Of a stretch of DNA of 64,000 bases, positions 6,381 to 46,768 are shown piece by piece. The notes below the pieces were generated by a model. The model had not been told where the DNA came from. It did not search any database and worked only from the letters and a program-made list of their open reading frames with translations. Within the stretch, counting starts at the first letter, position 1; every line of letters begins with the position of its first letter. The DNA comes from Micromonospora sp. HK10 (GTDB taxonomy: Bacteria > Actinomycetota > Actinomycetes > Mycobacteriales > Micromonosporaceae). Location of the stretch: positions 1-64,000 of the forward strand of contig NZ_KQ058828.1 of NCBI RefSeq assembly GCF_000982955.1. The letters run 5' to 3'. A program made the translations under genes and the position numbers.

Positions 6381-6381
6381 C

Positions 6382-18168: not shown

Positions 18169-18945
18169 TCACCCGGTCTGCCGGAAGTGTGCCAGGGCTG
18201 CTCGGGCCAGGAGGACGGTGCCGAAGGCCAAGCCGAACAACAGGCCCAGGTACATCAGGACCGGTCTGGCCGAGAGCGTGCCGTTGAAGGCGGCTCGGCT
18301 CAGTTCGACCGCCCAGTTGACCGGATTGGCGGCAACCGCCGTCGCCACCCAGCCCGGCACGAGTCCTCGTGGCATGAACGCGGTGGAGAGAAAGGTCATC
18401 GGCATGATGACGAAGTTCACCACCGCGATCAGCGACTCCTCGCGCCGGACGAGCAGGGCCACCGCGTTGGACAGTGCGGCGATCGCCGCGGCGATCGCCG
18501 CCAGGGCGAGCACCACGACGAGCACCCCGACAAGCCCGCCGCGGAATGTGACCCCGAGTCCGTAACCGATGGCGACCAGGATCGCCGTCGGCACCACGCC
18601 GCTGACGATCTGCTGCAGGAGCGGCCCGATGATCAGCGATGCGGGCCTGGCGGGCGAGGCCAGCATGCGGTCGAGGGTGCCGCGCTCCATGTCGGCCAGC
18701 AGTGACATGCCGCTCCACCCGGCGGTCAGGAGGACCGTCATGACGATCAGCCCGGGCAGGAAGAACTGCGCGTAGTTGCTCTCGCCGAAGCCGGGGATCG
18801 TGGCGATCCGGTTGAACGTGGCGCTGAACAGCAGCAGCCAGAGGAACGGCTGGACCAGGTTGATGGCGATCAGCCACGGCTGTCGAAAGGAGTGCAGGAT
18901 GTGGCGCCTCGCCACGTACGCAGACTGGCCGATCAGTTCGCTCAT
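18169..18945 (-). CDS. ABC-2 type exporter permease (DrrB-like)
   Basis: Membrane protein of 258 residues with six hydrophobic segments of the ABC-2 transporter family. The family segment FFLPGLIVMTVLLTAGWSG is present, and the C-terminal part includes ANPVNWAVELSR. These permeases pair with one ATPase for antibiotic efflux. The start overlaps the stop of the ATPase gene as ATGA. With the ATPase it most likely exports the cluster's product and may confer self-resistance. Confidence 0.9.
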   Translation of the reverse strand: MSELIGQSAYVARRHILHSFRQPWLIAINLVQPFLWLLLFSATFNRIATIPGFGESNYAQFFLPGLIVMTVLLTAGWSGMSLLADMERGTLDRMLASPARPASLIIGPLLQQIVSGVVPTAILVAIGYGLGVTFRGGLVGVLVVVLALAAIAAAIAALSNAVALLVRREESLIAVVNFVIMPMTFLSTAFMPRGLVPGWVATAVAANPVNWAVELSRAAFNGTLSARPVLMYLGLLFGLAFGTVLLARAALAHFRQTG

Positions 18946-19934: not shown

Positions 19935-20078
19935 TCGGCCTCGTCTCCCAATCGATCGCGCCACAGAACCGGGTCTAGGGTCTGCCGTTCGCCGCAAGGG
20001 CCTCGGCGAGGGACGGCACCGGGGTCGCTCGCCGTCCTGCGGCTCTCGGCTGCCCGCCCACTGCCGCCTGCCGGACGC

Positions 20079-20288
20079 TCATCCGGGTTCGCCGTCCATC
20101 TGCAGCCGGAGGCTGCGCGGACGCATGTCGGTCCACACCTCGGTGATGTACTCGAGACACTCCTGCTTGCGACCGGTTTTGCCGACCGCCGACCAGCCCG
20201 TCGGCGCCGGACGATCGGCTGGCCAGATCGAGTACTGGTCCTCGTCGTTGACGACGACGTGGAGCAGGTGGTCTTCGTCATCGAACAT
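20079..20288 (-). CDS. MbtH-like protein
   Basis: Full-length 69-residue MbtH-family protein. The family segments are recognisable: NDEDQYSIWP, then GWSAVG, then EYITEVWTDMRP, with the conserved tryptophans. MbtH-like proteins bind NRPS adenylation domains and are often needed for their solubility and activity. The start overlaps the end of the upstream LanB-like gene by 11 bases. It presumably serves one or more of the adenylation domains in the three NRPS proteins of this cluster. Confidence 0.95.
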   Translation of the reverse strand: MFDDEDHLLHVVVNDEDQYSIWPADRPAPTGWSAVGKTGRKQECLEYITEVWTDMRPRSLRLQMDGEPG

Positions 20289-22458
20289 TCTCGGCTCCTT
20301 TTCGATAGCGCTGGCTGTCGACGCAGGTCACCCGGAACTCGGCGGTGTAGCGGCGGCCATCGGCGTCCCGAAGCCACAGCTGCTCTGGCCCGGGCAGCAT
20401 CTCCGAAACCGTCACCCAGCCGGCGGGATTCGTTTCCCTGCCGCGGCGTAGCTTTGCCCAGAGCGCATCCACCAGCGTCACGTCGGAGAGGTCGACGTAG
20501 ATCGGCTTCGCCTCACCGGCGATCACCCAGAACGCCACATCCGGCAGGCCGTGGCTCGACGCGAGCCGGCGCACGTGCGCCACCGTCCGGTCCAGCTTGG
20601 CCCCGTGGAGATCGGGAAACCCGGCCAGCGGCACCTGCCAGCGTTCGCGCGACACCACGAGGCGGTCGATCTGCACGCGCGGGTGATGTGCCGCCGCTTC
20701 GAGGAAACCGAACCTGCTGTACGCGGACAGCGCCAGGTAATCGTCGAGGACCTCGGCGAGGTCCGCCCGGAAATCGTCCACCATGGACCGGACCACCAGC
20801 CGGCCGTTCTCGTCGTGTACCCGTAACCCGCCCACCGCGACGACCTTCGCCCGACGCGGCGCGTAGGAGGGCTCGGTCGCGACGCCCAGGTAGGTGTAGT
20901 GCGGTGCGTGATAGGCCTCGGGGGGAGCAGTCCGGGAATTGACCATCCCGTCGGTGGTCGGGTACAGCGGCACGATCCGCTCCGGCATGTCGGAGTCGAT
21001 CCACCGCCGCAGCGCGGGCTGGTCGGGGTGGGCGGAGAAGAAGCAGAGCTGGTCGACGCAGTTGATCGTGGGATGCAACTCGCCCAGGACGGCCAGGAAG
21101 CGACCTTCCTGCAGGTCCTCGACGCTGGCGGCGGCGTACATCAGGTCCGGGCCGTGCCATCGCGCGGAGGGCCAGCCCGGCGCGGCGGCCGGAAACGCCG
21201 CCACCACCTTGTCGCGCAGGTCCGCTGAGCGATGCACGACGACGTCGGATCCCGTCCCCGGCGACAGCAGTTCGGTCCACTTCCGGCGCAGCTCGGCGGT
21301 GGCCGCGCCGACCAGCCCGGCGGCGCCGTCGCGGATGCTGGACGCCAGTCCGGTCAGCAGCTTCGCCAACGGATAACCGTCCGGGTGGGGCTCGCGCGCG
21401 AGCGTCTCGCGGCATGCGGCATGGTAGCGACGCGCGATCTCGACCGAGTACCACCTGGCGCTGAGCAGGATCAGCTCCAACGCCGGCCCCACCTCTGCCA
21501 GCAGGTCGGTGCCGAGCGCGGGCGCGAAGTCCGACGGGCAGTCCTCGTACGCGACGGACCGGCCCGCGTAGAACTCACCATCGCGTCGGCGCCATGACGC
21601 CGCCGCGACCTCGGTGAACCGGTGGTGAAGCACGTCGAGTCGCGCCGCCACCGCCGCCGGGTCGCCCAGCGCGCCACGTACGTCGTCCAACGCGGAGACC
21701 AGGCTTGCCAGGTCGCGCTCGGCCCTCTCCCGCCTGATCGGGTCGGCGACCCGGGCGAGCTGGCTGGCGAGGTGTCGCTCCGGATGCCGTGCCTGCGGGA
21801 TGAAGAACCCTTGGGTGAGGACGCCCATCGCGCGCAGCACCTTGACCTCGCGGGCGATCGTGTCCGCGCCGCCGAACTCGGCACACGCCGCCGCGACGTC
21901 CGTCACGGTCTGGAACCCGTCGACGTTCTCCAGGATCCGCCGCTGCAACGGGGACAGCCGCAGGAAGGAGCCGTTGGCCAGGTGGACCCCTTCTGGCGCG
22001 ACGGCGACGGCGGCGCACCGGTGCGGCACGGTCCATTCGTCGAGCGCGTACCGCTCCGCGAGCGCCTCACCGAGCGCCTGGATCGCCCACATCTCGAAGA
22101 ACAGCTGGCCCCGCTGCGGCGAGGTCAGGTCACCAATCTTGGTTTCTCCGTCGTGCCAGTTTCCCCAGGCGACCGGGCCGAAGAAGCCGATCGAGTCGTT
22201 CTTCGCGCAGTACCGGGCGCGGTAGCTGGCGAGCGTCCGGCCCAGGTCGCGCGCTGTCTTCCCGCCGGCCTCGCCGGCCCGCCGGGCTCGTTTGCCGACC
22301 AGCGGGTGCTGCCAGGCCAGCGCTTCGAGGAACGGCCCCCGCCGGATGGTCTCCGGATCACTGACCCAGTCGAACGGCAGTCCGGCGGAGCGGACGCAGA
22401 CCGACCTCCAGAGGGAGAACTCCCCGCCGCCGATGGGGACCAGGTGATCTGGGGTCAT
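20278..22458 (-). CDS. LanB-like lantibiotic dehydratase N-domain protein, copy 1
   Basis: Protein of 726 residues related to the tRNA-dependent glutamylation part of class I lantibiotic dehydratases. Marks are ARYCAKNDSIGFFGPVAWG near residue 90 and the C-terminal block KPIYVDLSDVTLV then SEMLPGPEQLWLRDADGR. LanB enzymes usually have about 1000 residues with a SpaB_C elimination domain at the end; here the protein stops at or near the end of the first part. Split LanBs and peptide aminoacyl-tRNA ligases share this region. The ATG at 22458 overlaps the oxidoreductase stop as ATGA. No LanA, LanC or other lanthipeptide gene is seen, so its role within an NRPS-PKS is open. Confidence 0.82.
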   Translation of the reverse strand: MTPDHLVPIGGGEFSLWRSVCVRSAGLPFDWVSDPETIRRGPFLEALAWQHPLVGKRARRAGEAGGKTARDLGRTLASYRARYCAKNDSIGFFGPVAWGNWHDGETKIGDLTSPQRGQLFFEMWAIQALGEALAERYALDEWTVPHRCAAVAVAPEGVHLANGSFLRLSPLQRRILENVDGFQTVTDVAAACAEFGGADTIAREVKVLRAMGVLTQGFFIPQARHPERHLASQLARVADPIRRERAERDLASLVSALDDVRGALGDPAAVAARLDVLHHRFTEVAAASWRRRDGEFYAGRSVAYEDCPSDFAPALGTDLLAEVGPALELILLSARWYSVEIARRYHAACRETLAREPHPDGYPLAKLLTGLASSIRDGAAGLVGAATAELRRKWTELLSPGTGSDVVVHRSADLRDKVVAAFPAAAPGWPSARWHGPDLMYAAASVEDLQEGRFLAVLGELHPTINCVDQLCFFSAHPDQPALRRWIDSDMPERIVPLYPTTDGMVNSRTAPPEAYHAPHYTYLGVATEPSYAPRRAKVVAVGGLRVHDENGRLVVRSMVDDFRADLAEVLDDYLALSAYSRFGFLEAAAHHPRVQIDRLVVSRERWQVPLAGFPDLHGAKLDRTVAHVRRLASSHGLPDVAFWVIAGEAKPIYVDLSDVTLVDALWAKLRRGRETNPAGWVTVSEMLPGPEQLWLRDADGRRYTAEFRVTCVDSQRYRKGAENVR

Positions 22459-23429
22459 ACCTCGTCGGCAATCTCGTACACCCTGGTCAGCGTCTTCAGG
22501 CAGAGGTCGTACGACCGCTTGGCGGACCCGGCGGGGGCGACACCGATCTCGTCCACGCCGCACCGGCGGTACCCGCTGATCCGCTGTGCCACCTCATCCT
22601 CGGTGAACGCGCCAAGTGCCCGGATCATCCCGTCGTCCGCCATGTTCGCGCCGATCGAGGCCGCAAACCCGCTCCGTTCGAAGAGCGACCGATAGGTCGC
22701 CACGCGCAGGTACGCGGCCAGCGTGCGGGCGAAGAGGTCCCGGTCGGCCTCGGGTGCTCCGGTCACGCCGGCGTGCATCATCGCGACGATCTTGAAGCCG
22801 TCCGGGCGCCCTCCCCGCCTGGCCCATCCACGTCTCAAGGCGGGCATCGCGTGCTGGGTCAGGTAGTCCGTCGTACACATCCAGAGGATCACGCCGTCGG
22901 CGAGCTCACCGGCGAGCTCCAGCATCTTCGGCCCGAATGTCCCCAGGTAGACCGGGAGGTCCTCGCGGCGCTCGCCGATGTAGGCGGCATGACCGCTGTA
23001 CCACGTGCCGTCGAAGTTCACATCGCCGTCGTGGATCATCGAGGTCACCACGGTGAGGTACTCCCGGGTCGCCGCCAGGGCCGGAGCCGGCTGTCCGCCG
23101 ACCATCCAGTCCCCCACACCGCGGTGCCCGAGCCCGAGCCCGAGCCCGACCCGCCCGCCGGAGATGGCGTCGGCGGTCAATGCCGACTGTGCCATCACGA
23201 CCGGCGGCCGGGAGTACATCGGCAGCACCGCGGACGCGAGCGTCACCCGCTTGGTGTGCACCGACAACGCCGCGAGAACTGTCGCGACATCGAGCTGGTT
23301 CGGCAGCTGCGGAAGCCAGATGGAGTCCATGCCGATGTCCTCGGCGTGACCGACGATCCCGAGCAGTGCCGACGGCGGAATTCCGCCGCTGTCGACGACG
23401 GCGCCGACGCGAATCCGATCAGCCGGCAT
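22455..23429 (-). CDS. Luciferase-like (LLM) F420/FMN-dependent oxidoreductase
   Basis: About 324 residues of the bacterial luciferase-like TIM-barrel family. Typical segments are the N-terminal AEDIGMDSIWLPQLP, the SGGRVGLGLGLGHR loop and PVYLGTFGPKMLELAGELADGV. These enzymes use F420 or FMN to reduce or oxygenate substrates, and several act on carrier-bound intermediates in NRPS-PKS pathways. The ATG at 23429 overlaps the end of the PKS gene by 11 bases; a start ten codons further upstream lies wholly inside the PKS. It sits between a PKS module and a LanB-like gene in one operon, so it probably works on the same intermediate. Cofactor and substrate are not determinable. Confidence 0.87.
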   Translation of the reverse strand: MPADRIRVGAVVDSGGIPPSALLGIVGHAEDIGMDSIWLPQLPNQLDVATVLAALSVHTKRVTLASAVLPMYSRPPVVMAQSALTADAISGGRVGLGLGLGHRGVGDWMVGGQPAPALAATREYLTVVTSMIHDGDVNFDGTWYSGHAAYIGERREDLPVYLGTFGPKMLELAGELADGVILWMCTTDYLTQHAMPALRRGWARRGGRPDGFKIVAMMHAGVTGAPEADRDLFARTLAAYLRVATYRSLFERSGFAASIGANMADDGMIRALGAFTEDEVAQRISGYRRCGVDEIGVAPAGSAKRSYDLCLKTLTRVYEIADEV

Positions 23430-26400
23430 TCGTGGCCGCCCCCATCGCCTCGAGGGCACGCCGCGCCTCGTCCTCGGAGAGCGTCGACACCTTCTCGATC
23501 AGCGCCGCCTCGATCGCGGAGGCGAGCATACGCACGTTGCGGGAATCGAACAGCAGCGCCGCCGAGACGTCGACCGAGAACCGGTGGCTGATCCGAGCCA
23601 CCAGCTGGACCGCGAACAGCGAGTTGCCGCCCAGGTCGAAGAAGTCGTCATCGACACCGATCCGCTCCACGCCCACGGTCTCGGACCAGAGCTCGGCGAG
23701 AATCCGCTCGATGTCGCTGTCCGGCGCGACGTACGGGGTGGTCAGAGTTCGCGGGGCACCGACTGTCCCCGACTGTGCGGTCAACTGCTCGGTGACCGCC
23801 TCGCGGTTGACCTTCGACGTACGACGCAACCGGACGTCCAGGCCTTCCGGGCACCAGATGACCTGTGGTCCCGCGCCCGAGCCGAGGATGACGCGCAACG
23901 CCTCCTCGCCCTGCTGCGGAAGGACCTCGTCGAGCGCGTCGTCGATGTTCGATTCGGCTCTCACGCTCCCCGGCAGGTGCTCCGGCATGCGGAAGAGCAT
24001 GAAGCGGTCCACCGCCACGAGTTCGTTCCCGTCGGCGTCGACAACGGAGACGTCCGTGCTGCTCACCTCGCCCCGGGTGTCATCCAGATGCCGGATGACG
24101 CTGTGTACGCGCCCGACCAGTGGCCCTCGGATCGACACGCGACCGTAGCTGAACGGCAGGTACTGGCCGGTGCCGTGGATGATCTGACCGAGGCCGATGG
24201 CGCAGTCGAGTACCGCCGGGTGGAGGTAGTAGGAATCCTCGTCGGCGCGGAAGCGATCGCCGAGTTCCACCGTGACGAGTTCCGTCGCGTCTGCGGAGCG
24301 GACGCTCCGGATTCCGCCCCATCGTGGGCCGAACGTCAGCGGGCCGTCCCAGTCCGCCGCATCGAGGACGTCAACCTCTTGCGATGTCCCGCGCAGCTGC
24401 GACAGGTCCCGCTTGACGGGCTCGCTGGCAGCCGGGAGGCCGACCCGCCCCTTTGCGTACTCGTTGCCGTCCTGCGCCCGGATCACCGCGTCGAAGCTGC
24501 CGTCGTCGTTGCGGCGCATGGCCAGGTGGCAGCGCAGGCCGGGGTGAGCCACCAGGGGCTGCACCAGCGTCAGGCCGGTGATCTCCGCGTTCTCACTACC
24601 GGTCAGCTCGGCGAACGCGGCGCGGATCAGCTCGATGATGCCGGTTCCCGGCATGGTCGGAACGCCGTTCAACCTGTGCTCGGCGAGCACCCAGAGGGAA
24701 TGCGACAGGTTGATGCCGAACTCCGTGGTGACGGCGTCGATCTCGGACTTGCCCTGCAGCATCGGATGCCGGACCGCGGTGCGCGGCGCGTCCTCCAGCT
24801 GGCCACCGCCGGCGATGTGGTCGAACACCGCCGGCGCCAGGATCTCGCTGGCCATGCCGACCTCGGCGAAGGGCGGCCAGTTGATCGAGACGGTGTGCTG
24901 CCCACGCGCCCAGCGGGACTGGGCGAAGGCGTCCAGGACGCAGTTCGCCCCGACGTAGTCGCCGAGCCCGAAGTCGGCGGAGAGAACCGCGATCGACGAG
25001 TACAGCACCATCAGGGGCGGGTGGAAGATCTCCTCGAGCAGGTAGGTGCCCTGCACCTTCGGCGCGAGCACCGCGGCCGCGTCCTGGTGGGATCGGGTCT
25101 CCAGCATTCCTCCGCCCGCGACCGCGGCGAGATGGAAGACGCCGTCGACCGCACCGAACTCGGCCTGAACCCGCTCGTTCACCGCGCGCATCACGTCGGC
25201 ATCGGTGACGTCGGCGGCCAGCACCAGCACCTGGCCGCCAGCGGCCTCGATCTCGCGGATCGACCGGATGCGGCGGGCCTGCGGGCTGTCGGGTGTGGTG
25301 GACAGGATCTCCGCCCACTGCTCTCGATCCGGCAACCCGCTGCGACCGAGCAGCACCAGCTTCGCCTGGACCTGCGCGGCGAGCTGGCGCGCCAGCACCA
25401 GGCCGAGGCCGCCGAGGCCGCCGGTCAGGAGGTAGACACCGCCTGGCCGGAGCAGGACCGGCACTCCGTCCGGCGCCTTCAGCGGGGTCGACGCGTACGA
25501 CCAGGTCCAGCGCTTGCGTCCGCGATAGGCGACCTGCTGGTCGGTGACCCCGGCGGTGATCTCGGCGAACAGTTGACCCGCGACCCGCTCCACGGCGAGG
25601 TCCGCGCCGAAGTCGATGCTGCGGCAGCCGATCGACTCGAGTTCCTTCGGCGCCAGCTTCACCAGGCCGAGCAGGGCGGACTTAGCCGGCTCGATCAGGC
25701 CGTCGCCGATGACGTCCTGCATCTGGCTGGACACGAAGACGATCTCGACCGGCGTTCCAGGGAGCTGCCGCGCGGTCTCCTGGAGCATGGTCAGGCCGCT
25801 GTGGTAGCCGTCTCGGAGCCACCCGCTCGCGTAATCCGCCTCGGTCACCCCGGCGGGCCGCTCGCCGAGGCAGAGCCCGTGCACCAGAGTCACCGTTCCG
25901 TGCTCCCGCAGATCACGAGCGGAGATGGCGGTGATCAGCTCGTCCTCGGTGGCGGCGACGATCACTCTGGCGCCGTCCGCCGCGGCGAGTTCGGCGAGCC
26001 TGGACAGCACCGCGTCGCCGGGGCGGGCGAGCACGATCCAGACTCCGGACGCCGAGCCGGCGGCCGGCGGGACGCTCTCCAGCCACACCGGTGCGGTGTA
26101 GGCGCCGACCTGCACCGGCGTTCCCGCTGTCCCGCCTTCCGCCGCGGCCTCTTCGGGAGCGTCGGGTTCGATCCAGTGGCGGCGGCGCTGGTACGGGTAT
26201 TCCGGCAGCGGGACAAGGCTGCGTTGCTCGTCGCCCCAGAACTGCGACCAGTCGACCTCGACGCCCTCCGCCCAGGCCCGGCCCACCGCGTTCAGCAGGA
26301 CCTCCGCATCGGACTGCCGCTGCTTCGCGTGCCGCATCGTCGGCACGGCAACGGCCGCGCGGTCATGTGCGGCGACGTAACCCGTCAGGGTGCGGCCAGG

Positions 26401-28806
26401 GCCGACCTCGATGAAGGCGCGGTCGCCGTCGGAGGTCAGCAGCCGCAACGACTCGGAGAAACGCACGCGGCCGCGCAGGTGCCGCACCCAGTACATCGGG
26501 TCGGTCGCCTCGTCGTCGGCGATCCAGGTGCCGGTCGAGTTGGCCACAAACGGGATCCTGGGCGGGTTCAACGGGGTCCGGCGTACCGCCTCCGCGAACC
26601 GGTCGAGGATGTCGTCCATCATCCGGGAGTGGAACGCGTGGGACGTGTGCAGGGGGCGGCTGCTCACGCCCTGCAGCATCAACTCCTCCTCGAACCGGGC
26701 GATGTCGTCGTGGGTCCCCGCGACGACACAGACCCCGGGAGAGTTGAGCGCCGCGATGTCCAGCGACGCGTCGAGCATCGGCGTCAGCAGCTCTTCCGAG
26801 AGAGTGACCGCCAGCATGGCGCCGCTCTCGACCGTCTGCATGAGGGCGCCGCGCTCGGCTACCAGCCGCAGCGCGTCATCGCGGCTGAACACGCCGGCCA
26901 GGGCCGCCGCGACGTATTCACCGACGCTGTGTCCGGCCATCGCGGTTGGCGTGATGCCCATGCCCTGCAGGGTCTTGGCCAGCGCGTACTCGACGGCGAA
27001 CAGGATCGGCTGGGTGTGGCAGGTCAGGTTCTGCTCTTCCGCGTCCGCGTGGAAGATCAGATGCAGCAGATCCAGGCCGTGCGAGTCGCGCAGCACGGCG
27101 GCGCAGGCGTTGATCTCGGACCGGAACAGCGGCTCCGTGTGATAGAGCTCCGCCGCCATCGCCGGATACTGCGCACCCTGCCCGGGGAACAGGAAGGTCG
27201 CGGTACGCCCGGGCTTCGGGTGGAAGGTGGGCAGGTCAACGGTGAGCCGCTCGGTTGCCTGGGCGCCATCGGTGACGACCGCGTACCGGCGCAGCGCCAG
27301 CGGCCCGCGGCCGACGTTCAGCGTGTAGCAGGCGTCGGCGAGCTCGTCGCCGGCGGCGCCGAGGTGCTTAGCCAGCGACAGGGTCAGCGCATCGAGCGCT
27401 TCCTCGACGTGCGCGGTGAGTGCGACCAGTTGCACGGGTCGACGGGCCGGCCGGGCCGCGGGGCGCTGCGGAGCCTGCTCGATGATCACATTGGCGTTCG
27501 TGCCGCCGATACCGAAGGAACTGATCGCCGCCCGGCGCGGCGTTCCATTGCTCTGCCAACTGGCGCGCTTGCGGTTGACGTAGAACGGGCTGTGCTCGAA
27601 GTCGATCCGCGGATTCGGCTCATCGAAGTTGATCACGGGCGCCAGCTGTCCGTCCTGGACGCTGCACACTGCGTTGATCATCCCAGCCACGCCGGCCGCC
27701 GCGCCGAGGTGGCCGACGTTCGCCTTGACCGAGGCGATCGCGCAGTAGCCGGTGCGGTCGGTCCGCTCCCCGTAGGCGGTGCTCAGCGCGCCGACCTCGA
27801 TCGGATCGCCGACCAGCGTGCCGGTGCCGTGCGCCTCGACGTAGCCGATCGTCTCCGGGTCCACGTCCGCGTCGCTCAGCGCCGCTCGGACCACCGCCAC
27901 CTGGCCGTGCTTGCTCGGCGCGAAGAAGCCGCTCTTGTTGTTGCCGTCGTTGTTGATCGCCGAACCCCGGATGATCGCGTGAATCGGGTTGCGATCGGCG
28001 ACCGCGGCGGCCAGGGGCTTGAGCAGGACGACGCCGACGCCGTTGCCGAACACCGTGCCCCGGGCCTTGGCGTCGAAGGGGCGGATCCGGCCGTCGGGCG
28101 AGTAGATTCCGCCCTCGCTGTAGCGGTAGCCGGCTACCTCCGGAAGGCCGATCTCGACGCCGCCGGCGAGCGCGACCTCGCACTCTCCGGCGCGCAGCGC
28201 CCGCACCGCGGTGTGGATCGCGACCAGGGACGTCGAGCAGGCCGTCACCATGCTTATCGCCGGGCCGGTCAGGCCCAATCGGAAGGCGACGCTGGTGGCG
28301 AGGTAGTCGGTGTGATTGTTGATCATCGCCATGAGCGATCCGGTGCCGCGCATGACGGCGCCGTTCTGGAAGACATTTTCCTCGAGGTAGGCGTTGTCCT
28401 TGGAGCCGGCGTAGACGCCGACGCGGTCCTCGGTCTGCCCCGGGACGACGCCGCCGTTTTCCAGCGCCACGTGGCAGGCCTCCAGGAACACGCGGAACTG
28501 CGGGTCGAGCAGCTGCGCCTCACGCGCGCTCAAGCCGAACAGCTCGGCGTCGAACTTGTCCACGTCGCCGAGGATCGGCGCCGCGCGGACGTAGGCGGGA
28601 TCCGCCAGATCCGCCTCCGTCGCACCGTTGGCCAGCAGTTGGTCGTCATCGAAAAAGGAGATGGACTCCACCCCGGCCAGCAGGTTCTCGCGGAACTCCG
28701 CAATAGAGTCGGCGCCGGGGAAGCGTGCCGCCATACCGATGATCGCAACGGGCTGTCCCGGCTGCCGGCTGATCTGTGCCTGCGCAGCACCTGGTTGAAG
28801 AGCCAT
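23419..28806 (-). CDS. Type I PKS module, KS-AT-KR-DH-ACP (module A)
   Basis: Single-module PKS of about 1795 residues. The ketosynthase has Cys190 (TACSTS) and His in EAHGTGT and NVGHLG. The acyltransferase has GHSVGE at about 625-630 and the malonyl-type HAFH at about 723-726. The ketoreductase has TGGLGGLG near 1130 with catalytic Ser near 1270 and Tyr1284 (DYVGAN). The dehydratase follows, with His1377 (HRLNGVPTMPGTG) and Asp near 1534 (HPAVLD). The carrier Ser is near 1729 (LGGNSL). The KR precedes the DH, the reverse of the usual order. The start at 28806 is one of two nearby ATGs (the other is 28815), neither with a good ribosome-binding site. Confidence 0.93.
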   Translation of the reverse strand: MALQPGAAQAQISRQPGQPVAIIGMAARFPGADSIAEFRENLLAGVESISFFDDDQLLANGATEADLADPAYVRAAPILGDVDKFDAELFGLSAREAQLLDPQFRVFLEACHVALENGGVVPGQTEDRVGVYAGSKDNAYLEENVFQNGAVMRGTGSLMAMINNHTDYLATSVAFRLGLTGPAISMVTACSTSLVAIHTAVRALRAGECEVALAGGVEIGLPEVAGYRYSEGGIYSPDGRIRPFDAKARGTVFGNGVGVVLLKPLAAAVADRNPIHAIIRGSAINNDGNNKSGFFAPSKHGQVAVVRAALSDADVDPETIGYVEAHGTGTLVGDPIEVGALSTAYGERTDRTGYCAIASVKANVGHLGAAAGVAGMINAVCSVQDGQLAPVINFDEPNPRIDFEHSPFYVNRKRASWQSNGTPRRAAISSFGIGGTNANVIIEQAPQRPAARPARRPVQLVALTAHVEEALDALTLSLAKHLGAAGDELADACYTLNVGRGPLALRRYAVVTDGAQATERLTVDLPTFHPKPGRTATFLFPGQGAQYPAMAAELYHTEPLFRSEINACAAVLRDSHGLDLLHLIFHADAEEQNLTCHTQPILFAVEYALAKTLQGMGITPTAMAGHSVGEYVAAALAGVFSRDDALRLVAERGALMQTVESGAMLAVTLSEELLTPMLDASLDIAALNSPGVCVVAGTHDDIARFEEELMLQGVSSRPLHTSHAFHSRMMDDILDRFAEAVRRTPLNPPRIPFVANSTGTWIADDEATDPMYWVRHLRGRVRFSESLRLLTSDGDRAFIEVGPGRTLTGYVAAHDRAAVAVPTMRHAKQRQSDAEVLLNAVGRAWAEGVEVDWSQFWGDEQRSLVPLPEYPYQRRRHWIEPDAPEEAAAEGGTAGTPVQVGAYTAPVWLESVPPAAGSASGVWIVLARPGDAVLSRLAELAAADGARVIVAATEDELITAISARDLREHGTVTLVHGLCLGERPAGVTEADYASGWLRDGYHSGLTMLQETARQLPGTPVEIVFVSSQMQDVIGDGLIEPAKSALLGLVKLAPKELESIGCRSIDFGADLAVERVAGQLFAEITAGVTDQQVAYRGRKRWTWSYASTPLKAPDGVPVLLRPGGVYLLTGGLGGLGLVLARQLAAQVQAKLVLLGRSGLPDREQWAEILSTTPDSPQARRIRSIREIEAAGGQVLVLAADVTDADVMRAVNERVQAEFGAVDGVFHLAAVAGGGMLETRSHQDAAAVLAPKVQGTYLLEEIFHPPLMVLYSSIAVLSADFGLGDYVGANCVLDAFAQSRWARGQHTVSINWPPFAEVGMASEILAPAVFDHIAGGGQLEDAPRTAVRHPMLQGKSEIDAVTTEFGINLSHSLWVLAEHRLNGVPTMPGTGIIELIRAAFAELTGSENAEITGLTLVQPLVAHPGLRCHLAMRRNDDGSFDAVIRAQDGNEYAKGRVGLPAASEPVKRDLSQLRGTSQEVDVLDAADWDGPLTFGPRWGGIRSVRSADATELVTVELGDRFRADEDSYYLHPAVLDCAIGLGQIIHGTGQYLPFSYGRVSIRGPLVGRVHSVIRHLDDTRGEVSSTDVSVVDADGNELVAVDRFMLFRMPEHLPGSVRAESNIDDALDEVLPQQGEEALRVILGSGAGPQVIWCPEGLDVRLRRTSKVNREAVTEQLTAQSGTVGAPRTLTTPYVAPDSDIERILAELWSETVGVERIGVDDDFFDLGGNSLFAVQLVARISHRFSVDVSAALLFDSRNVRMLASAIEAALIEKVSTLSEDEARRALEAMGAATNAG

Positions 28807-28846
28807 GCGAGTCATGCTGGGTCGAGGCGGGCCGGCTGCCAAGACT

Positions 28847-28883
28847 GGAAGCCGCTCCTGGCGACAACTCGCCAGCGGCTTCC
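28847..28883. promoter_or_regulatory. Large palindrome in the divergent PKS/SbnA promoter region
   Basis: Inverted repeat GGAAGCCGCT-(CCT)-GGCGA, loop CAAC, TCGCC-AGCGGCTTCC: fifteen paired bases with a three-base bulge. It occupies the middle of the roughly 110-base gap between the divergently read PKS module A gene and the SbnA-like gene, 33 bases from the latter's ATG. It could be a cluster-regulator operator serving both promoters, or an RNA hairpin in a leader. Confidence 0.6.
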
Positions 28884-28915
28884 TAGTGCATTGGACGCGC
28901 GTGCATTCTTTGCCG

Positions 28916-29944: not shown

Positions 29945-29988
29945 CGGATCGCCGCACGGTAAGGCCCGGCCGCACCGGCGTCGCGTCG

Positions 29989-40200: not shown

Positions 40201-43200
40201 GCGGATCGACGACCTGCATCGGCTGCCCGTCGACGACCACGTAGCGGGTACGCAGGATCTCGTGTCGGTCGATCACCGTCCGCACGGCAGAGATCACCGA
40301 GGCCAGCGTGGCGTCGCCGGCGACCGGGAACACCGCCGGAACCATCTGCTCCGGGCTGCCCGGACGCAACTGCTCGGCGATCCACATGCGCTGTTGTCCG
40401 GCGGAGAGCGGCAGCGGCCGCCCCCGCGGCACCGGGACCACCTCATGGTCGGCGGTCAGCTGCGCCTGCCCCGGTACCCGCAGCAACGCGGCCTGCGCCT
40501 CCACCGTGGTGGCCACGTAGAGCCGGGACAGCGGGACGGCCGTCCCGAACCGTTTCTGAAGCCGGTTTCCGAGCAGGCCGATCTGCAAGGACTGTCCACC
40601 CAGCGCGAAGAAGTCGTCGTGCACCCCGACCGTCTCGCACGCCAGCAGCGCCGTCCACTCGGCCGCTACCCCCAGCTCGAAGACGTCTCTCGGCGCGACC
40701 CTCTCCTCGGGTGCGGCGGTGGGCAGGTCCCGGTCGAGGAGCGCGCTGCGATCGATCTTGCCGCTGGTGGTCTGTGGCAGCTCGTCGAGCCGGACGAACA
40801 CCGACGGGATCATGGGATCGGGCAGGGTCTGCCGTAGCCGGGCTCGCAGCTCGCCGACCTCCGGTTCACCGTCCGCCACGAAATAGGCCACCAACTGCCG
40901 CCCGCCGTCGGGAAGGGGACGCACGACCACCGCGGCGGCCTCGACCGGCGCGGCGACCAGCGCCCGCTCTATCTCGGCCGGCTCGATCCTCACCCCGTTG
41001 ACCTTCACCTGGTCATCGCGGCGACCGAGGAACTCGAGCACGCCGTCGGGACGACGGCGGACGAGGTCGCCCGTGCGATACATCCGGGCGCCCGGCGGAC
41101 CGAACGGATCGGGCACGAAACGCTCGGCGGTGTGCCCGGGCCGGCCGTGGTAGCCCCGGGCGACCCCGACCCCGCTGGCGAAGAGTTCACCGATCGCACC
41201 GGGTGGCACGGGGTTGCCGTCGCGGTCGAGGACCAGCGTCCGCAGGCCGTCCAGCGGCCCACCGATGGGTACCGGCCCGGCTGTCTGGTCCGGCTGCCAT
41301 TCGTACGCGGTGACGTCGATCGAGCACTCGGTCGGCCCATAGGTGTTGTGGATGGCGACCTCCACCAGCTCGCGCACGCGCGAGCAGAGTTCCCCGGTCA
41401 ACGGCTCGCCGGCGCTGAACAGCAGCCGCAGCGCGCGGCACTCCTGCCAGCCGGGCGCGAGGAGCAGTTGTCGCAGCACCGACGGAACCACCTGTAGGAC
41501 CGTCACCGCCTCACTGGCCACCGCACGGACCATCGCCTCCGGATCGCGCTCCACGCCGGGTGGCGCGATGACCACCGTCCCGCCGCTCACCAGCGGGGAG
41601 AAGATCTCCCACCCGGCCGCGTCGAAGGTCAGTGCGGTCTTCTGCAGCACCCGGTCGGCCGGTCCGAGGCCGAGCCGCCGGACCGGCCACAGCACGCGGT
41701 TGGCGATCCCGCCGTACGTGATCACCACGCCCTTCGGGCGGCCGGTGGATCCGGAGGTGTACATCACGTACGCGGCCAGGTCCGCATGCAGCTCGGGGAG
41801 CGCGGCCCGCGTGCCGTCGTCCGAGACGGTGTCGACACAGAGCGGGGTGATCCCGAGCGCCGCGACCCGCGACGCGTGCTCGGTGGCCGTCACGACCGTC
41901 CGGATGCCGGCCTCGTCAATGATCAGCCGGGTCCGCGCGGCGGGATGGTCCGGGTCGAGCGTGACGTAGCAGGCGCCCAGCCGGCCCACGGCGAGGAGGG
42001 CGCACACCGCGGCCGCGCCGCGAGGCAGGTAGACGCCCACCCGCGACTCCGGGCCGACGCCTTCGCCGCTGAGCCGGGCGGCGAGCGCCTCGACGGCGCG
42101 CTCCAGCTCCGCGTACGTCAGCGATTCGCCCTTGTCGACGAGGGCGGTCGCGTCCGGGGTACGGGCCGCCTGAGCGCGGAAGAGCGTGGGCAGCAGCGGT
42201 ACCTCGTCGGGCGCCGCGGCTGGGGCGACAGCTTCGCCCATCGGGGCCCGCTTGACGTCGAGGGCCGGATCTGCGGCAAGCGTGTCGACGAGGGCGGTGA
42301 ACTGATCCAGCAGTGCGTACGCCGTCTCCTCGCGGAACAGCGCCGTCGAGTACTCCAGTTCGATGCGCAGCCCGCCGCCGACCACCGGGACCACGTGCAG
42401 AGTCACGTCGAGCTGTGACCCCCGCGGAGTGATCGGCAGCGGGGTCGACGTCAGGAGCTGTCGGTTCTCGCCCATCGGCATGTTGAAGCCGACCTGGGCC
42501 AGCGGCGCACGGTTGCGCGGATAACCGGGTCGGACCTCGCGGATCAGCAGGTCGTACGGGACGTTCTGGTGCTTGAGCGCCTCCGACACGCGGTCGCGTA
42601 CCTGCCTGAGCAGGTCCCGGAAGCTGAGCCGGCCGGCCGTGTCGATGCGAATCGCCACCATGTTCACCAACATGCCGACCATGCGCTGCAACTCCGGCCG
42701 GTTGCGCCCGGAGACGGTCGAGCCGATCACCAGGTCGTCCGCACCGGTGTACCGGCGCAGCAGGACCGCGTACGCCGCCAGCATCACCATGTAGGTGGTG
42801 GCACCCTCGGCGCGGGTCAGTGCGCGTACCCGCTCGATCACCGTCGCGCCGAGATCGCGCTGGACGGTGACGCCCGCCAGGCTCCGCTCGGCGGGTCTGA
42901 CGTGGTCGGTCGGCAGGTCGAGGGGGCCGGGTAGATCAGCCAACCGGTTGCGCCAGTAGTCCAGATCGCCGGCGAACGCACCGCTGGTCACCTGAGCGCG
43001 CTGCCAGGCGGCGAAGTCGACGAACCGTACCGGCATGGAGATCCTCGGCAGCGCCCTCGCGAGCTCACTCGCGACCAGGACCAGCGAGGAGGCGTCCATG
43101 ACGATGTGGTGTGCGCCGAGCACGAACATCCGCCGACCGGACGGGGTGGCGAGGACGGCGGCCCGCCACAGCGGTGCGTGGTCGAGCTGGTACGGCTCGA

Positions 43201-43609
43201 GGGCGAAGCGCAGGGCCACGGCGTGCGCCACGGCCGGATCGTCGCTGTCCAGGGCGATCTCTTCGAGCCTGGCGGGCACCGACGGCAGCACCGTCATCCG
43301 GGGTCCGTCGCCGAGGCTGAGCACGGACATCCTCATCGTGTCGTGCCGCGCGACGATCTGGGTCAGCTCGTCCTGGAGCTCGGCGACGGACACCTCATCG
43401 GGGATCCAGTCGGCGGCGATCAGATTGAAGAGCGGGACGTCACCGGCGAGCTCGCCGATCAGCCACACCGCCTCCTGCGCATAGGACAACCGGGCCGGAA
43501 ACTCGCCGTTCCATCGCGGAATGACGTCGACCTTCGCGGGCGCCGCGTCGCCGCCTCTCTTGAGAAGTTGCGCCAGCAGTTGCTGCTTGAGTGGCGACAG
43601 CTCAGCCAT
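37256..43609 (-). CDS. NRPS, C-A-PCP-C-A-PCP
   Basis: 2117 residues in two modules. C1 has HHIVMDA at 167-173, a DA ending often seen when the upstream donor is a ketide or acyl unit. The A1 residues read DAWQFATIDK, close to glutamine codes; ureidoalanine, a glutamine isostere, would fit the local pathway. PCP1 Ser is near 1007 (LGGQSL). C2 has HHIAWDG near 1191. In A2 the segment FVDVVCE puts Val at 235 and Asp at 236, so the Asp that binds the alpha-amino group is displaced, as in beta-amino-acid A domains; the residues read V,D,C,D,V,I,C,V,T,K. PCP2 Ser is near 2047. It overlaps both neighbours by 8 and 14 bases. Confidence 0.92.
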   Translation of the reverse strand: MAELSPLKQQLLAQLLKRGGDAAPAKVDVIPRWNGEFPARLSYAQEAVWLIGELAGDVPLFNLIAADWIPDEVSVAELQDELTQIVARHDTMRMSVLSLGDGPRMTVLPSVPARLEEIALDSDDPAVAHAVALRFALEPYQLDHAPLWRAAVLATPSGRRMFVLGAHHIVMDASSLVLVASELARALPRISMPVRFVDFAAWQRAQVTSGAFAGDLDYWRNRLADLPGPLDLPTDHVRPAERSLAGVTVQRDLGATVIERVRALTRAEGATTYMVMLAAYAVLLRRYTGADDLVIGSTVSGRNRPELQRMVGMLVNMVAIRIDTAGRLSFRDLLRQVRDRVSEALKHQNVPYDLLIREVRPGYPRNRAPLAQVGFNMPMGENRQLLTSTPLPITPRGSQLDVTLHVVPVVGGGLRIELEYSTALFREETAYALLDQFTALVDTLAADPALDVKRAPMGEAVAPAAAPDEVPLLPTLFRAQAARTPDATALVDKGESLTYAELERAVEALAARLSGEGVGPESRVGVYLPRGAAAVCALLAVGRLGACYVTLDPDHPAARTRLIIDEAGIRTVVTATEHASRVAALGITPLCVDTVSDDGTRAALPELHADLAAYVMYTSGSTGRPKGVVITYGGIANRVLWPVRRLGLGPADRVLQKTALTFDAAGWEIFSPLVSGGTVVIAPPGVERDPEAMVRAVASEAVTVLQVVPSVLRQLLLAPGWQECRALRLLFSAGEPLTGELCSRVRELVEVAIHNTYGPTECSIDVTAYEWQPDQTAGPVPIGGPLDGLRTLVLDRDGNPVPPGAIGELFASGVGVARGYHGRPGHTAERFVPDPFGPPGARMYRTGDLVRRRPDGVLEFLGRRDDQVKVNGVRIEPAEIERALVAAPVEAAAVVVRPLPDGGRQLVAYFVADGEPEVGELRARLRQTLPDPMIPSVFVRLDELPQTTSGKIDRSALLDRDLPTAAPEERVAPRDVFELGVAAEWTALLACETVGVHDDFFALGGQSLQIGLLGNRLQKRFGTAVPLSRLYVATTVEAQAALLRVPGQAQLTADHEVVPVPRGRPLPLSAGQQRMWIAEQLRPGSPEQMVPAVFPVAGDATLASVISAVRTVIDRHEILRTRYVVVDGQPMQVVDPHADPEITEVERDVAGLGDDILELAGRPFDLAAGPVLRGRLVSTAAGRRFLVLMLHHIAWDGASVRIFAQELQGAAETHKVQYADYAAWQATWLDRHGERELAHWRERLNGATATELPGDHPRPKVWQGRGKLVAFRIPRTVSAAVVRMGRSQGATPFMTFLAAFNCLLAGAAGTDDVVIGTPSAGRSTPDVENVIGYFANILVLRTAVEAGDTFLDVLARTRDTARTAYAHQDLPYDRLVSERRAKRDRSRNPLFQIMFEVGAERPSYLPDLPDDDELATVRIPWPTAMYDLTVTLTEEPDGSYLGIAEFATDIYRPATINRLIGEYQDILRAAVADQHTTVRALTAATLPEVLLRRAATAPDATAIEQGEQRLTYAELTDRVDTMAAVLLAEGVGPETPVAVCLPRSPDLVVAALAVMRAGGAFVPLDPSSPRSRLATMLAAIGPAVVVAPAGFADHLPADGPALLVPGEDIARRDIPGRSRRDGSAQDGEPSPTAPDQLAYVVHTSGSTGEPKGVMVSHRAYLSHCERAAARYGLTAADRLLLTSPPFVDVVCEHIGASIVAGATLVLGPAQPWSPADLPDYVQTHRVTFLDLPPIAWRDFLDQVAPGDHRLRTLRVVNIGTDVVRAGDIHRWYALGLAGDFIACYGPTEAVVTATLFDVPAGTAEQLAPESVVPIGTEVGGRVGHVLDENLREVPAGTRGELYLGGPNLARGYLGQPALTAERFLPDPFAETPGSRMYRTGDLVSRADHGVLDFHGRADRQVKVSGFRIELAEVEAALLTHAGIRAAVVVAVEPHGTPELAAYVVPAGSTAPTSNEVRAHLRERLPAHMVPRHVAALTEIPLTASGKPDWRRLPAVTTAGTGGDEGARAPDSGAERTTEELIRGIWREVLDLTEIHDDADFFELGGNSLMATRVHTRLQDLFGVTVPLGEIFDAATVDLQTEMITNAVIAEVGQLSDDDVAALLRDGHDDFGEDDERA

Positions 43610-44612
43610 GGCTCTTCTCCCGGGTTGGCAGGAAGTTGTCGACGGTCAGGCCCAGCCCGTGTGCCCCGGCGGCGGCGACGACCAGTCGGGCGACGGCCAG
43701 GTCGAGGATGCCCAGCCCGAACGGTGACACGACGGTGACCCGGGAGAGGTCGCGATCCGTGACGTCCGGCCGCGTCGCCAGCTCACCGATCGTCGCGGAC
43801 ACGAATTCGCGATGCCCCACTCGCTGTTCGGCGAGGTGCACGGAGGTCGCGGCACGGAATACGTGGTCGATGTCGTCGACGACGTTGTCCGCGGCCACGA
43901 CGGCTTCCGGAAGCACGTCACGCAACGAGATGTGCAGCACCAGCGTCCCCGGTCGGAGTCCGCGCGTGTCGAGGTGCGGGTGTTGGGCGTTCGTGGCGAT
44001 GCTGGTCAGGGTGTTTTTCGCCAGCGCGGTCGGCAGATCTCGTGCCACGCGCACGTCGAGCTCGGGCAACTGCGCAGCGCACCGCTCGCGCAGCAGTTCG
44101 GCCCGCTCCGCCCGGGTGTCGTAGGCCGTGACCTGGGTCAGGCCGGGGAGGACGTGCGGCAGGAAGCGCAGGACCGCGAAGTTGATCACTCCGCAGCCGA
44201 TCACCGTCACCCCGTTGCTGTCCGTGGCCGCGGGAAGCAGCCTGGCCGCCAGGGCGGCGCTGGCCGCGGTCCGCCACGCCGAGATCGTGGAGGCTTCGAG
44301 GAACGCCAGCGGATGCCCGGTGTCGAGGCTGTTGAGGATCATGGCGGCGGAGGCCCGCTGGAGGCCGTGCTCGATGTTCGCGGGGAATGACGAGATCCAC
44401 TTGATTCCGGCCGTCGGCCGGGCGCCCCCGAGGTACGCGGGCAGCGCGATGATGCGGTTGCGCTGGTCGTCCGGGAACCTGAGGAAGACGGAGTGCGGCA
44501 GCGACGATTCGGCGTTCGCATGCGCGACGTAGGCGTCCTGGACCGCCTGCAGGACGTCGCGTTCCTGCCCGCGCAGGACGGCTTCCACATCACCGTGGGT
44601 GAGAATCAACAT
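43602..44612 (-). CDS. SbnB-like ornithine cyclodeaminase-family dehydrogenase
   Basis: 336 residues, the usual SbnB length, with a Rossmann motif (VTVIGCGVINFAVLRF) near 130 and a substrate region GIKWISSFPANIEHGLQRA of the ornithine cyclodeaminase/mu-crystallin family. SbnB oxidises N-(2-amino-2-carboxyethyl)-L-glutamate with NAD to release L-2,3-diaminopropionate and 2-oxoglutarate. The presence of an SbnA-like gene in the same cluster favours this over proline-forming cyclodeaminase. The ATG at 44612 overlaps the LanB-like gene by 7 bases, and its stop overlaps the next NRPS by 8. Confidence 0.87.
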   Translation of the reverse strand: MLILTHGDVEAVLRGQERDVLQAVQDAYVAHANAESSLPHSVFLRFPDDQRNRIIALPAYLGGARPTAGIKWISSFPANIEHGLQRASAAMILNSLDTGHPLAFLEASTISAWRTAASAALAARLLPAATDSNGVTVIGCGVINFAVLRFLPHVLPGLTQVTAYDTRAERAELLRERCAAQLPELDVRVARDLPTALAKNTLTSIATNAQHPHLDTRGLRPGTLVLHISLRDVLPEAVVAADNVVDDIDHVFRAATSVHLAEQRVGHREFVSATIGELATRPDVTDRDLSRVTVVSPFGLGILDLAVARLVVAAAGAHGLGLTVDNFLPTREKSHG

Positions 44613-46768
44613 GTCGGTGGCCCTACTGTGCTGGCGAGGACCGGCAGGATGCGCGCGGCGCTGTCCACCGCGACCATCCGGAACTCGGTGGTGTACGGGT
44701 TTCCGTCGCCGTCGCGGAGCCAGAGTTGATCCGGATCCGGCAGCATCTCCTGCAGCCGCACCGGGCCCGCGGTCTCCCGGCGCCAGGATCTGGCCAGGTT
44801 GCTGACGAGAACCGCCGAGTCCAGATCCACGTAGAACGGTTTGGGCTCCGACGGCAGTTGCGCGAACAGGTGCCGGGGCAGGCCGCGCTCCGCGAGCCAC
44901 CCGCCGAGCACCTCGGGTCGATAGCCGGTCCTGGTGAGTACCCCGGCGGGCAGCTCGTCCAGCTCGAACGTCCAGGTCGCTCGCCGGATCACCAGGTTGT
45001 CCAGGATCAGGCGCGGCCCCGGGGCCGGCAGCCGGAACAGATTCACCGCCAGCGCCGACAGGAACTCGCCGAAGAACTCGCGCACGGGAAGTGACCAGCT
45101 CGCCCGAGCCGGGCCGGCGACCAACGCGCCCTGCTCGAGCCGCACCAGCAGGGTGGCGGCAGGCCATGCCGGTGCGCCGTCGGGAGTGCCCAGGTCAGCG
45201 CTGTGCGACCAGTAGAGGTAGCGGCCGGGCACATGCATGGCGAGCGGGGGGTACCGGCGCGAATCGATCTGTGGGCCGTACGGGTAGCACGGGACGATCC
45301 GCCCGCCCGCCATGTCTCCCGCGATCAACTCGTCCAGCCGGCTCGGCTCATCGGCGAGCGTGTGGAAGAACCGCGACTCCAGGGTGTTCATCCCGACGTG
45401 CAGCTCGCCGAGAACCCAGAACGACTCGGGCCCGTCGTGCGCGAGCAGCAGGTCGGGGCTGTGATGCCGGGCAGCCGCCCAGCCCGGTTCGCGGGCCGGG
45501 AACATGGCGGAGACCAGGGGGCCCAGGTCGGCGCTCGCCAGTTGGACCGGACCGGCGCTGCCGCCGGTCGAGTCGGCGAGGACCTCCGCCCACCGGAGCG
45601 TGAAGTCCTGCGCGACGTCGTGCACGGGCGTGCCCCGTGCGCCGGAGAGAACGTCGGCGGCAGCAAGGAACAGGTCCGTGAGCAGCACTGCGTCGCGTCG
45701 CTGGCGCAGGTCCGCGTACACCTGCTGGAGCCGTTCCTCGACGGCTTCGCCGATCTCGGCGGTCAGCCAGCGGGCCGATTGCAGCAGCAACGCCAGTGGC
45801 TGGGCCAGCCGCTCGGTCATCCCCGCCGGAATCCGGACGTCCAGGTCGCGGCGGCAGTCCAGGTAGGCGAGCGTTCGCCCGGCGCCGACCTCGGCCTTGG
45901 TGCGGGTCACCGCCTCCCCGGTCAGCGCCGCGAACCGGCGATCGAGCTCGGCCAGCGCGCCGGCCAGCTCGGCCGGCCGCGTCGCCATCTTCTCCGCCTC
46001 GGCAAGGGCGGTGAGCAGCTTGTCGACGTCGGAGAGCCACTCGTCGCGGCCTGCCGTGTCGGGAAGCATCGCGATCTGCGCCCGCAGGGATTCCTCGGGG
46101 TGGGCGTCCGGCCGCACGGTGAACTCGGAGGTGATCACGCCCGCGTCGAGGAGTGCGGTGAGCTGGGCCTGGTCGGCCGGTGCGAGGTGGGCGGCCGTCG
46201 TGGTGCCGTCGATCCGTCGGAGCACGGCGAGCTGCGCCGAACTCAGCGGCATCGGGGGGCGGTAGGGGCGCCGGACCTCGTCCTCGACGACCCGGACGGC
46301 GGGGTTCAGGCGCAGCGGCAGGTGTGGTCCTACCCGCGGGTCGGCGGCGATGGCCGCGGCCAGCGCCCGCACCGCCCACAGCTCGATGGACGCCTCCGAC
46401 CGACGGATCGCTCCGGAGCCCGCGACGCGCAGGTGATGACCCGGCTCGGTGGTGAGGTCCGCCCAGCCGACCGGGCCGAAGAAGCCGATGCTGTCGTTCT
46501 TCGCGCAGTACCGTTGCGCGTACTTCGCGAGCACGCCGATCCGGTACGACGTGAGTGCCGGCTCCGGCCGTCCGGCCCAACTCGCCACCACCGCGGGGTT
46601 CTGCCACGTGAGTGCGGCCAGGAAGGCCGGCTCGGTGAGCAGGTCACGCAGTGCCGGTCCGGCGTCGCCGGCCAGACCGGCGAGCCAGGAGAACGGCATG
46701 CCGGCGCCCCGCACGGGCGCGATCGGCCACAGCCCCCAGTCGTCGTTCAGTCGAACGAGATCATTCAT
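44606..46768 (-). CDS. LanB-like lantibiotic dehydratase N-domain protein, copy 2
   Basis: Protein of 720 residues, homologous end to end to the one at 20278-22458. Shared marks are QRYCAKNDSIGFFGPVGWA near residue 95 and, at the C-terminus, KPFYVDLDSAVLV then EMLPDPDQLWLRDGDG. Like copy 1 it appears to lack the C-terminal elimination domain of full-length LanB. The ATG at 46768 overlaps the PKS module B stop as ATGA. Each LanB-like gene therefore follows a KS-AT-KR-DH-ACP gene, directly here and one gene later in copy 1. It may act on the intermediate made by the preceding module; the reaction is unknown. Confidence 0.82.
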   Translation of the reverse strand: MNDLVRLNDDWGLWPIAPVRGAGMPFSWLAGLAGDAGPALRDLLTEPAFLAALTWQNPAVVASWAGRPEPALTSYRIGVLAKYAQRYCAKNDSIGFFGPVGWADLTTEPGHHLRVAGSGAIRRSEASIELWAVRALAAAIAADPRVGPHLPLRLNPAVRVVEDEVRRPYRPPMPLSSAQLAVLRRIDGTTTAAHLAPADQAQLTALLDAGVITSEFTVRPDAHPEESLRAQIAMLPDTAGRDEWLSDVDKLLTALAEAEKMATRPAELAGALAELDRRFAALTGEAVTRTKAEVGAGRTLAYLDCRRDLDVRIPAGMTERLAQPLALLLQSARWLTAEIGEAVEERLQQVYADLRQRRDAVLLTDLFLAAADVLSGARGTPVHDVAQDFTLRWAEVLADSTGGSAGPVQLASADLGPLVSAMFPAREPGWAAARHHSPDLLLAHDGPESFWVLGELHVGMNTLESRFFHTLADEPSRLDELIAGDMAGGRIVPCYPYGPQIDSRRYPPLAMHVPGRYLYWSHSADLGTPDGAPAWPAATLLVRLEQGALVAGPARASWSLPVREFFGEFLSALAVNLFRLPAPGPRLILDNLVIRRATWTFELDELPAGVLTRTGYRPEVLGGWLAERGLPRHLFAQLPSEPKPFYVDLDSAVLVSNLARSWRRETAGPVRLQEMLPDPDQLWLRDGDGNPYTTEFRMVAVDSAARILPVLASTVGPPTC

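Follow-up and report, generated by a model that had tools for sequence, protein, structure and literature searches.

A biosynthetic gene cluster fills much of the first 64,000 nucleotides (positions 1 to 64,000, hereafter the window) of contig NZ_KQ058828.1 from Micromonospora sp. HK10. The contig, C180 in our numbering, has 172,759 bases in a genome of 6.9 Mb. The cluster lies on the minus strand from ~18.2 kb to ~70.8 kb of the contig, with its upstream end outside the window. It combines nonribosomal peptide synthetase (NRPS) and polyketide synthase (PKS) genes with two genes, here called LanB1 and LanB2, for proteins of a kind that databases label lantibiotic dehydratases. We conclude that LanB1 and LanB2 are probably not dehydratases but ATP- and aminoacyl-tRNA-dependent amide ligases of the NRPS-PKS pathway, of the peptide aminoacyl-tRNA ligase (PEARL) type.

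In the direction of transcription the cluster begins past the window with genes for an ABC transporter, an ABC-2 permease, a thioesterase, NRPS_0 and a second thioesterase. The genes are given below in this order; domains were assigned with Pfam and A-domain pocket codes by alignment.

Past the window on contig C180, minus strand: NRPS_0, C-A-T, pocket code DILQLGVIW, between the two thioesterase genes
58660-63804, minus strand: PKS1, KS-AT-KR-DH-ACP
57874-58908, plus strand: open reading frame (ORF) of a LuxR-type regulator (PF00196, 51.2 bits), whose end overlaps PKS1 and whose true end is uncertain
56867-57829, minus strand: carbamoyltransferase of the ornithine carbamoyltransferase family (TIGR00658, 253 bits, under the equivalog cut-off of 281)
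52020-56894, minus strand: NRPS_A, A-T-C-A-T, pocket codes DVGEIGTID and DPRHLGAQV
46765-52023, minus strand: PKS2, KS-AT-KR-DH-ACP, overlapping the start of LanB1
44606-46768, minus strand: LanB1, PEARL-like, 720 residues from ATG, glutamylation-domain fold, no elimination domain (PF04738, 63.8 bits)
43602-44612, minus strand: SbnB family, 2,3-diaminopropionate biosynthesis (TIGR03944, 390.8 bits, cut-off 326.9)
37256-43609, minus strand: NRPS_B, C-A-T-C-A-T, pocket codes DAWQFATID and DVEDNGCVT
29989-37323, minus strand: NRPS_C, C-A-T-C-A-T-TE, pocket codes DVWHFSLVD and DVPSVLHIV
28805-29944, plus strand: SbnA-like pyridoxal phosphate enzyme (PF00291; TIGR03945, 265.8 bits, under the cut-off of 350)
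23419-28842, minus strand: PKS3, KS-AT-KR-DH-ACP
22455-23459, minus strand: luciferase-like (F420-type) oxidoreductase, between PKS3 and LanB2 (PF00296; TIGR03564, 173 bits, under the cut-off)
20278-22458, minus strand: LanB2, PEARL-like paralogue, 726 residues from ATG, the longest ORF beginning upstream (PF04738, 62.1 bits)
20079-20288, minus strand: MbtH-like protein, 69 residues, overlapping the end of LanB2 (PF03621, 78.9 bits; a Hamadaea copy is 83% identical)
18942-19997, minus strand: ABC transporter ATP-binding protein, DrrA type
18169-18945, minus strand: ABC-2 permease

An initial annotation of the window had described the two LanB-like proteins as 726 and 720 residues long, confined to the glutamylation part of lantibiotic dehydratases, without a lanthipeptide precursor nearby, and each coupled to a KS-AT-KR-DH-ACP gene. 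All of this held. That annotation had not listed the part of the cluster past the window, the SbnA/SbnB pair or the MbtH gene. The lengths count from an ATG in both cases. PKS2 runs into the start of LanB1, and PKS3 followed by the luciferase-like oxidoreductase precedes LanB2; from their domain order, the KS-AT-KR-DH modules would make vinylogous residues. PF04738 (Lant_dehydr_N) is the sole Pfam family on either protein (cut-off 28 bits), and NCBIfam assigns no family to them. The elimination domain PF14028 was not found on contig C180 and occurs in the genome solely on contig C124, beside a split LanB, and on contig C224, with a class I LanB. We saw no scaffold peptide gene in the two gaps scanned in six frames (19990-20290 and 57800-58700), which hold the MbtH gene and the plus-strand LuxR-type gene.

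The fold of both proteins was compared with known structures using AlphaFold2 models (predicted local distance difference test score 84.2 for LanB1 and 89.9 for LanB2). Against TbtB (6ec7) the LanB1 model gave a Z score of 20.1 over 608 residues (root mean square deviation 4.3 Å) and the LanB2 model 19.7 over 603 residues (4.1 Å). NisB, MibB, MadB and GodF followed for both models with Z scores of 15 to 19, and Foldseek concurred for LanB1 with a glutamylation-domain match (E 3e-19). Residues ~141-219 resemble RRE-like winged-helix domains, with Z scores (~7 for LanB1, 8 to 9 for LanB2) at or slightly over the uninformative level; both proteins retain this segment, yet no leader peptide that it could bind was found. 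A sequence search of the PDB found nothing with LanB1 alone, and a profile of 22 sequences gave two weak matches, PqqD (E 0.12), which fits the RRE-like segment, and a designed-type helical chain, which is meaningless. The kinship to TbtB is visible only through structure.

LanB1 and LanB2 are 32% identical to each other. A quick tree of 84 proteins groups LanB1 with 15 relatives of five named families (support 87, or 99 without locus L116) and LanB2 with one Hamadaea and one Dactylosporangium roseum protein (support 100). By this tree the two are old paralogues of separate clades and not the result of a recent duplication.

Residues of the ATP and tRNA sites of PEARLs are named for TglB and BhaB7 in three papers (PMC12945691, PMC11117183, PMC11962472). 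Their counterparts in LanB1, set by motif, spacing and the published positions and not by direct sequence alignment, are R20, D439, E455, H457, R596, F635, K643, E695 and R697. R596 is the invariant Arg that answers to R743 of TbtB. For LanB2, D439, E461, H463, E708 and R710 are invariant in its alignment (A2), and the N-terminal Arg (the site of TglB R10 and BhaB7 R34) is present in both proteins. All 81 aligned rows share the Asp, Glu, His and Phe; the Lys is kept in 69, with Arg instead in the other 12. Glu-x-Arg is kept in 80, and the remaining row ends early in a gap. At this last site LanB1 and LanB2 both read E-F-R, TbtB reads E-F-L and the strain's own split LanB on contig C124 reads E-L-T; three GodF-like proteins have no E-x-R there either. 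Judged from sequence, the Arg of Glu-x-Arg is the residue that discriminates PEARLs from split LanBs. R86 is also invariant in the LanB1 alignment and the Tyr three residues before it is near-invariant; by spacing alone, these fit the Tyr205/Arg208 pair of BhaB, which has been proposed to hold the tRNA (PMC11962472).

To view related loci, we scanned 84,980 species genomes, which gave at least 450 relatives, and took the 79 best loci, a sample that leans to close relatives, with flanks of at most ~10 kb on each side. A, C or KS domains flank 77 of the 79 loci, so the pairing with NRPS or PKS genes is more than chance. KS is found in the flanks of 41 and a KS-KR-DH module in 28, and in 14 this module ends no more than 1.5 kb upstream of the LanB-like gene. 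The LanB1 clade has KR and DH matches in 13 of its 15 loci and a module within 1.5 kb upstream in 10. The initial annotation had named two results that would speak against it, a lack of the tRNA-binding surface and catalytic residues in models, or no co-occurrence of these proteins with such PKS modules elsewhere. Neither was seen, given the conserved residues and the modules at these loci.

Within the order, LanB1 has a match at 1e-10 in 47 of 298 genomes, its own genome counted, and in none of 39 other genomes (best match below 1e-60) does PF14028 lie within 34 kb of the best LanB1 match. Close relatives of LanB2 are few (1 of 393 other genomes of the class sampled; E 5e-91, 37% identity). 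From NRPS_A to the ABC permease, genes 72-83% identical to those of the cluster are arranged alike in the Hamadaea metagenome-assembled genome Bin2.24, a further sign that the setting is more than chance; this stretch was viewed as two loci of one contig that leave ~1.3 kb between them uncovered. A plasmid collection yielded 16 records by tblastn, annotated at most as lantibiotic dehydratase, and no match to an 8.6 kb DNA query from the cluster.

One related locus stands apart. In D. roseum NRRL B-16295 (NZ_CP073721.1, L074:16187-22009) the operon of a LanB1-type NRPS-PKS cluster goes on to encode a GodF-like protein, a stand-alone PF14028 protein (124.8 bits) and a LanB2 orthologue that retains Glu-x-Arg. 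The GodF-like protein has no Pfam match and was recognized by its PDB match to GodF (E 5e-8). Among the 79 loci this was the only one with an elimination-domain match at E 1e-3, and six other GodF-like loci (L170-L175, of 18 matches) showed no NRPS or PKS match. Genes for a FAD enzyme and a TetR regulator and a set of CRISPR genes follow downstream, so that on this flank the locus is more than the margin of a thiopeptide cluster. No precursor of a ribosomally synthesized and post-translationally modified peptide (RiPP) was recognized when two stretches were crudely filtered for short Ser/Thr/Cys-rich ORFs, many of the resulting frames being CRISPR-repeat translations. PEARLs are stated in the literature not to co-occur with PF14028 (PMC11212132). 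D. roseum is a single case departing from this and points to the possibility of a RiPP dehydratase acting on such a chain as well.

The closest precedent for a reaction is SnaE, from the threopeptin (sna) cluster of Stackebrandtia nassauensis (Yu and van der Donk, 2024). According to that report, about two thousand such clusters were counted, Thr-bearing products are not made from the sna cluster without SnaE, and the substrate of SnaE arises when a ureido-forming C domain (motif EHHxxHDG) reverses the chain and leaves a free carboxylate (PMC11212132). PEARLs are described there and elsewhere as activating a carboxylate with ATP, forming an amide with an aminoacyl-tRNA and releasing the tRNA, and the same has been argued for SnaE (PMC12945691, PMC11212132). 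From gene content, fold and conservation of the ATP- and tRNA-site residues we infer a similar course for LanB1 and LanB2. With ATP, each enzyme would phosphorylate a carboxylate that is free on a product or intermediate of the assembly line, and the amino group of an aminoacyl-tRNA would attack the acyl phosphate. After release of the tRNA by hydrolysis, the net gain would be a single ribosome-type amino acid, one not loaded by the NRPS modules. As members of separate clades, the two proteins most likely differ in the point at which they act or in the aminoacyl-tRNA that they use. The initial annotation had offered two roles: transfer of a tRNA-borne amino acid to an intermediate of the assembly line, which the fold and the PEARL residues favour, and activation of a Ser or hydroxyacyl for dehydration, which the Glu-x-Arg motif and the missing PF14028 partner disfavour.

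We offer two guesses for the carboxylate. One is the acid that the thioesterase of NRPS_C would release, the other an acidic side chain brought in by the A domain with the code DPRHLGAQV, which lies just upstream of PKS2 and LanB1. Codes of the DPRHLGAQV kind would read an acid, and the variants DPRHVGAQV, DPRHCAGQL and DPRQVAGQL recur in related loci. In four LanB1-clade loci (L074, L078, L079 and L082) a Gly-type code, DILQLGxIW, stands upstream of the LanB gene, which weakens the side-chain carboxylate as a general rule.

Several observations weigh against LanB1 and LanB2 as PEARL-type ligases. The ureido signature is absent from all six C domains of the cluster (the motif of NRPS_A reads LHHLISDG), so the precedent of SnaE leaves their substrate unexplained. 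The N-terminal Arg is found in only 53 of the 81 aligned rows (7 have Lys, 16 a gap and 5 another residue), and the active-site Asp does not discriminate, as the strain's own split LanB aligns a D there too. Finally, the D. roseum LanB2 orthologue adjoins a PF14028 protein.

Given the missing signature, we rejected chain reversal by a ureido-forming C domain as in threopeptin for this cluster. In the related loci 62 C motifs were seen at 41 of the 79; EHHxxHDG occurs in three (L104, L106 and L137), which fall in a clade other than that of LanB1 or LanB2. With three of 62 motifs showing the signature, in short flanks beyond which such domains may be missed, chain reversal is probably not the whole explanation for the family and probably does not explain most of the relatives.

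These observations can be joined into a wider proposal, which we put forward tentatively and consider rather doubtful as a whole. PEARL-type ligases might form a second, tRNA-fed amide-making arm of the assembly line that works without chain reversal. LanB1 would work together with the KS-AT-KR-DH module to which it is coupled; its substrate would be a chain still bound to the carrier or already released, perhaps reached by docking through the RRE-like segment. LanB2 would act at a second site, and in D. roseum a goadsporin-type split dehydratase would have been recruited to dehydrate a nonribosomal chain.

It is unlikely, in our view, that the ligases work before the assembly line, joining free diaminopropionate or its carbamoyl derivative to an aminoacyl-tRNA to supply a dipeptide building block. 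Genes for SbnA, SbnB and a carbamoyltransferase are present here, and at least one of the three is found in 17 of the 79 related loci, mostly in clades other than that of LanB1. Such a supply would also fit a Micromonospora locus (G185:C2:4104001-4162000; L151, L048 and L152) with three LanB-like genes, a lone A domain, a carbamoyltransferase, an MFS transporter and no C or KS match in 58 kb. However, in the flanks seen of the other LanB1-clade loci, SbnA or SbnB occurs in 3 of 15 and the carbamoyltransferase in none of 15, and no direct evidence points to a dipeptide substrate of any A domain. At the Micromonospora locus itself, peptides are possibly made by PEARL-like enzymes alone.

A Glu-tRNA-dependent esterification of a Ser/Thr or β-hydroxyacyl hydroxyl on the assembly line, which would aid dehydration, appears quite improbable. 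It would make use of the glutamylation-domain fold, and NRPS_C has an A domain with the code DVWHFSLVD, which we take to be of the Ser type. The DH domains beside LanB1 and LanB2 may also be weakened: HxxxGxxxxP was found in all three PKS genes, but inspection by eye showed only the Asp of their second motif (HPxxxD) and no Q or H at the customary place four residues further along. Yet both proteins carry the E-x-R that TbtB, the strain's own split LanB and the three GodF-like proteins lack, and contig C180 is without PF14028. The D. roseum operon, with its GodF-like and PF14028 proteins beside the LanB2 orthologue, fits esterification at first sight, but there the part of a dehydratase is taken by the separate GodF-like protein. 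Least probable is that LanB1 and LanB2 are scaffold-peptide PEARLs, which would use a carrier peptide as the support for making an unusual amino acid, later cleaved from it and taken up by an NRPS module: the PEARL residues and the RRE-like segment are kept, but the two gaps showed no scaffold-peptide gene, a Pfam scan of cluster proteins showed no protease, and NRPS clusters of the SnaE kind are reported to be without an identifiable carrier peptide (PMC11212132).

The relatives include further arrangements. In a clade with L110, L112, L114, L119, L124, L127, L130, L135, L142 and L143, 10 of the 12 loci have two LanB-like genes together, in many cases around a lone A domain and accompanied by a carbamoyltransferase or SbnB; KS matches are absent. 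On the Kitasatospora sp. NBC_00039 plasmid NZ_CP108290.1 (L149) three annotated lantibiotic dehydratases lie in a row of large hypothetical proteins; the record has seven matching places, and no NRPS is annotated in the stretch seen. Several LanB-like relatives contain one in-frame stop (for example G185:C2:4872337, G076, G168, G150, G083, G090 and G065), which may reflect gene decay, a frameshift or an alignment that ran on too far.

Next to the cluster, a large plus-strand BTAD/NB-ARC/TPR regulator (window 15303-18119) adjoins its downstream end, and a similar one is found in the D. roseum cluster (L158:14236-17331). Further on, minus-strand genes at 3841-13871 encode two P450s, an FMN-dependent dehydrogenase, a FAD enzyme and an aromatic amino acid lyase, which may belong to an adjacent pathway or supply precursors.

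Product prediction for NRPS-PKS clusters relies on modules. If proteins annotated as LanB add tRNA-borne amino acids, such predictions miss residues in the roughly two thousand clusters counted in PMC11212132. SnaE, the sole characterized case that we found in the open-licence literature, where no further NRPS-associated PEARL turned up, depends on a ureido-forming C domain. The cluster described here and most of its relatives show no such domain in the flanks seen and thus provide a test case for other carboxylate sources of these ligases.

Taken together, LanB1 and LanB2 can be placed among several known systems. TbtB, GodF, NisB and MibB share their fold, including the RRE-like segment; TbtB and the GodF-like proteins differ in that the Arg of Glu-x-Arg is absent there and present here, and no PF14028 partner is found here. 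The scaffold-peptide PEARLs TglB, BhaB and AmmB share the ATP- and tRNA-site residues, by published positions, whereas here no scaffold peptide was seen and the context is an NRPS-PKS cluster. ATP-grasp ligases such as glutathione synthetase, for which a common origin has been proposed (PMC11117183), show a weak fold likeness (Z ~6), possibly a mere common arrangement; the tRNA dependence that we propose here sets LanB1 and LanB2 apart from them. SnaE, compared by its description, is closest in setting, as the sna cluster likewise has an annotated lantibiotic dehydratase in an NRPS-PKS context without a RiPP precursor, an MbtH partner and an A-T-C-A-T NRPS followed by a PKS. It has one LanB-like protein and a ureido C domain, whereas here there are two such proteins, no C domain with the signature, and additionally three KS-AT-KR-DH modules with diaminopropionate and carbamoyl genes. 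The meeting of RiPP and NRPS-PKS enzymology, considered unusual in the initial annotation, is therefore not new in kind, since SnaE and the many clusters like it are published (PMC11212132). What is new is the occurrence in one cluster of two PEARL-like paralogues of separate clades, with KS-AT-KR-DH modules and diaminopropionate and carbamoyl supply genes, and without a ureido C domain.

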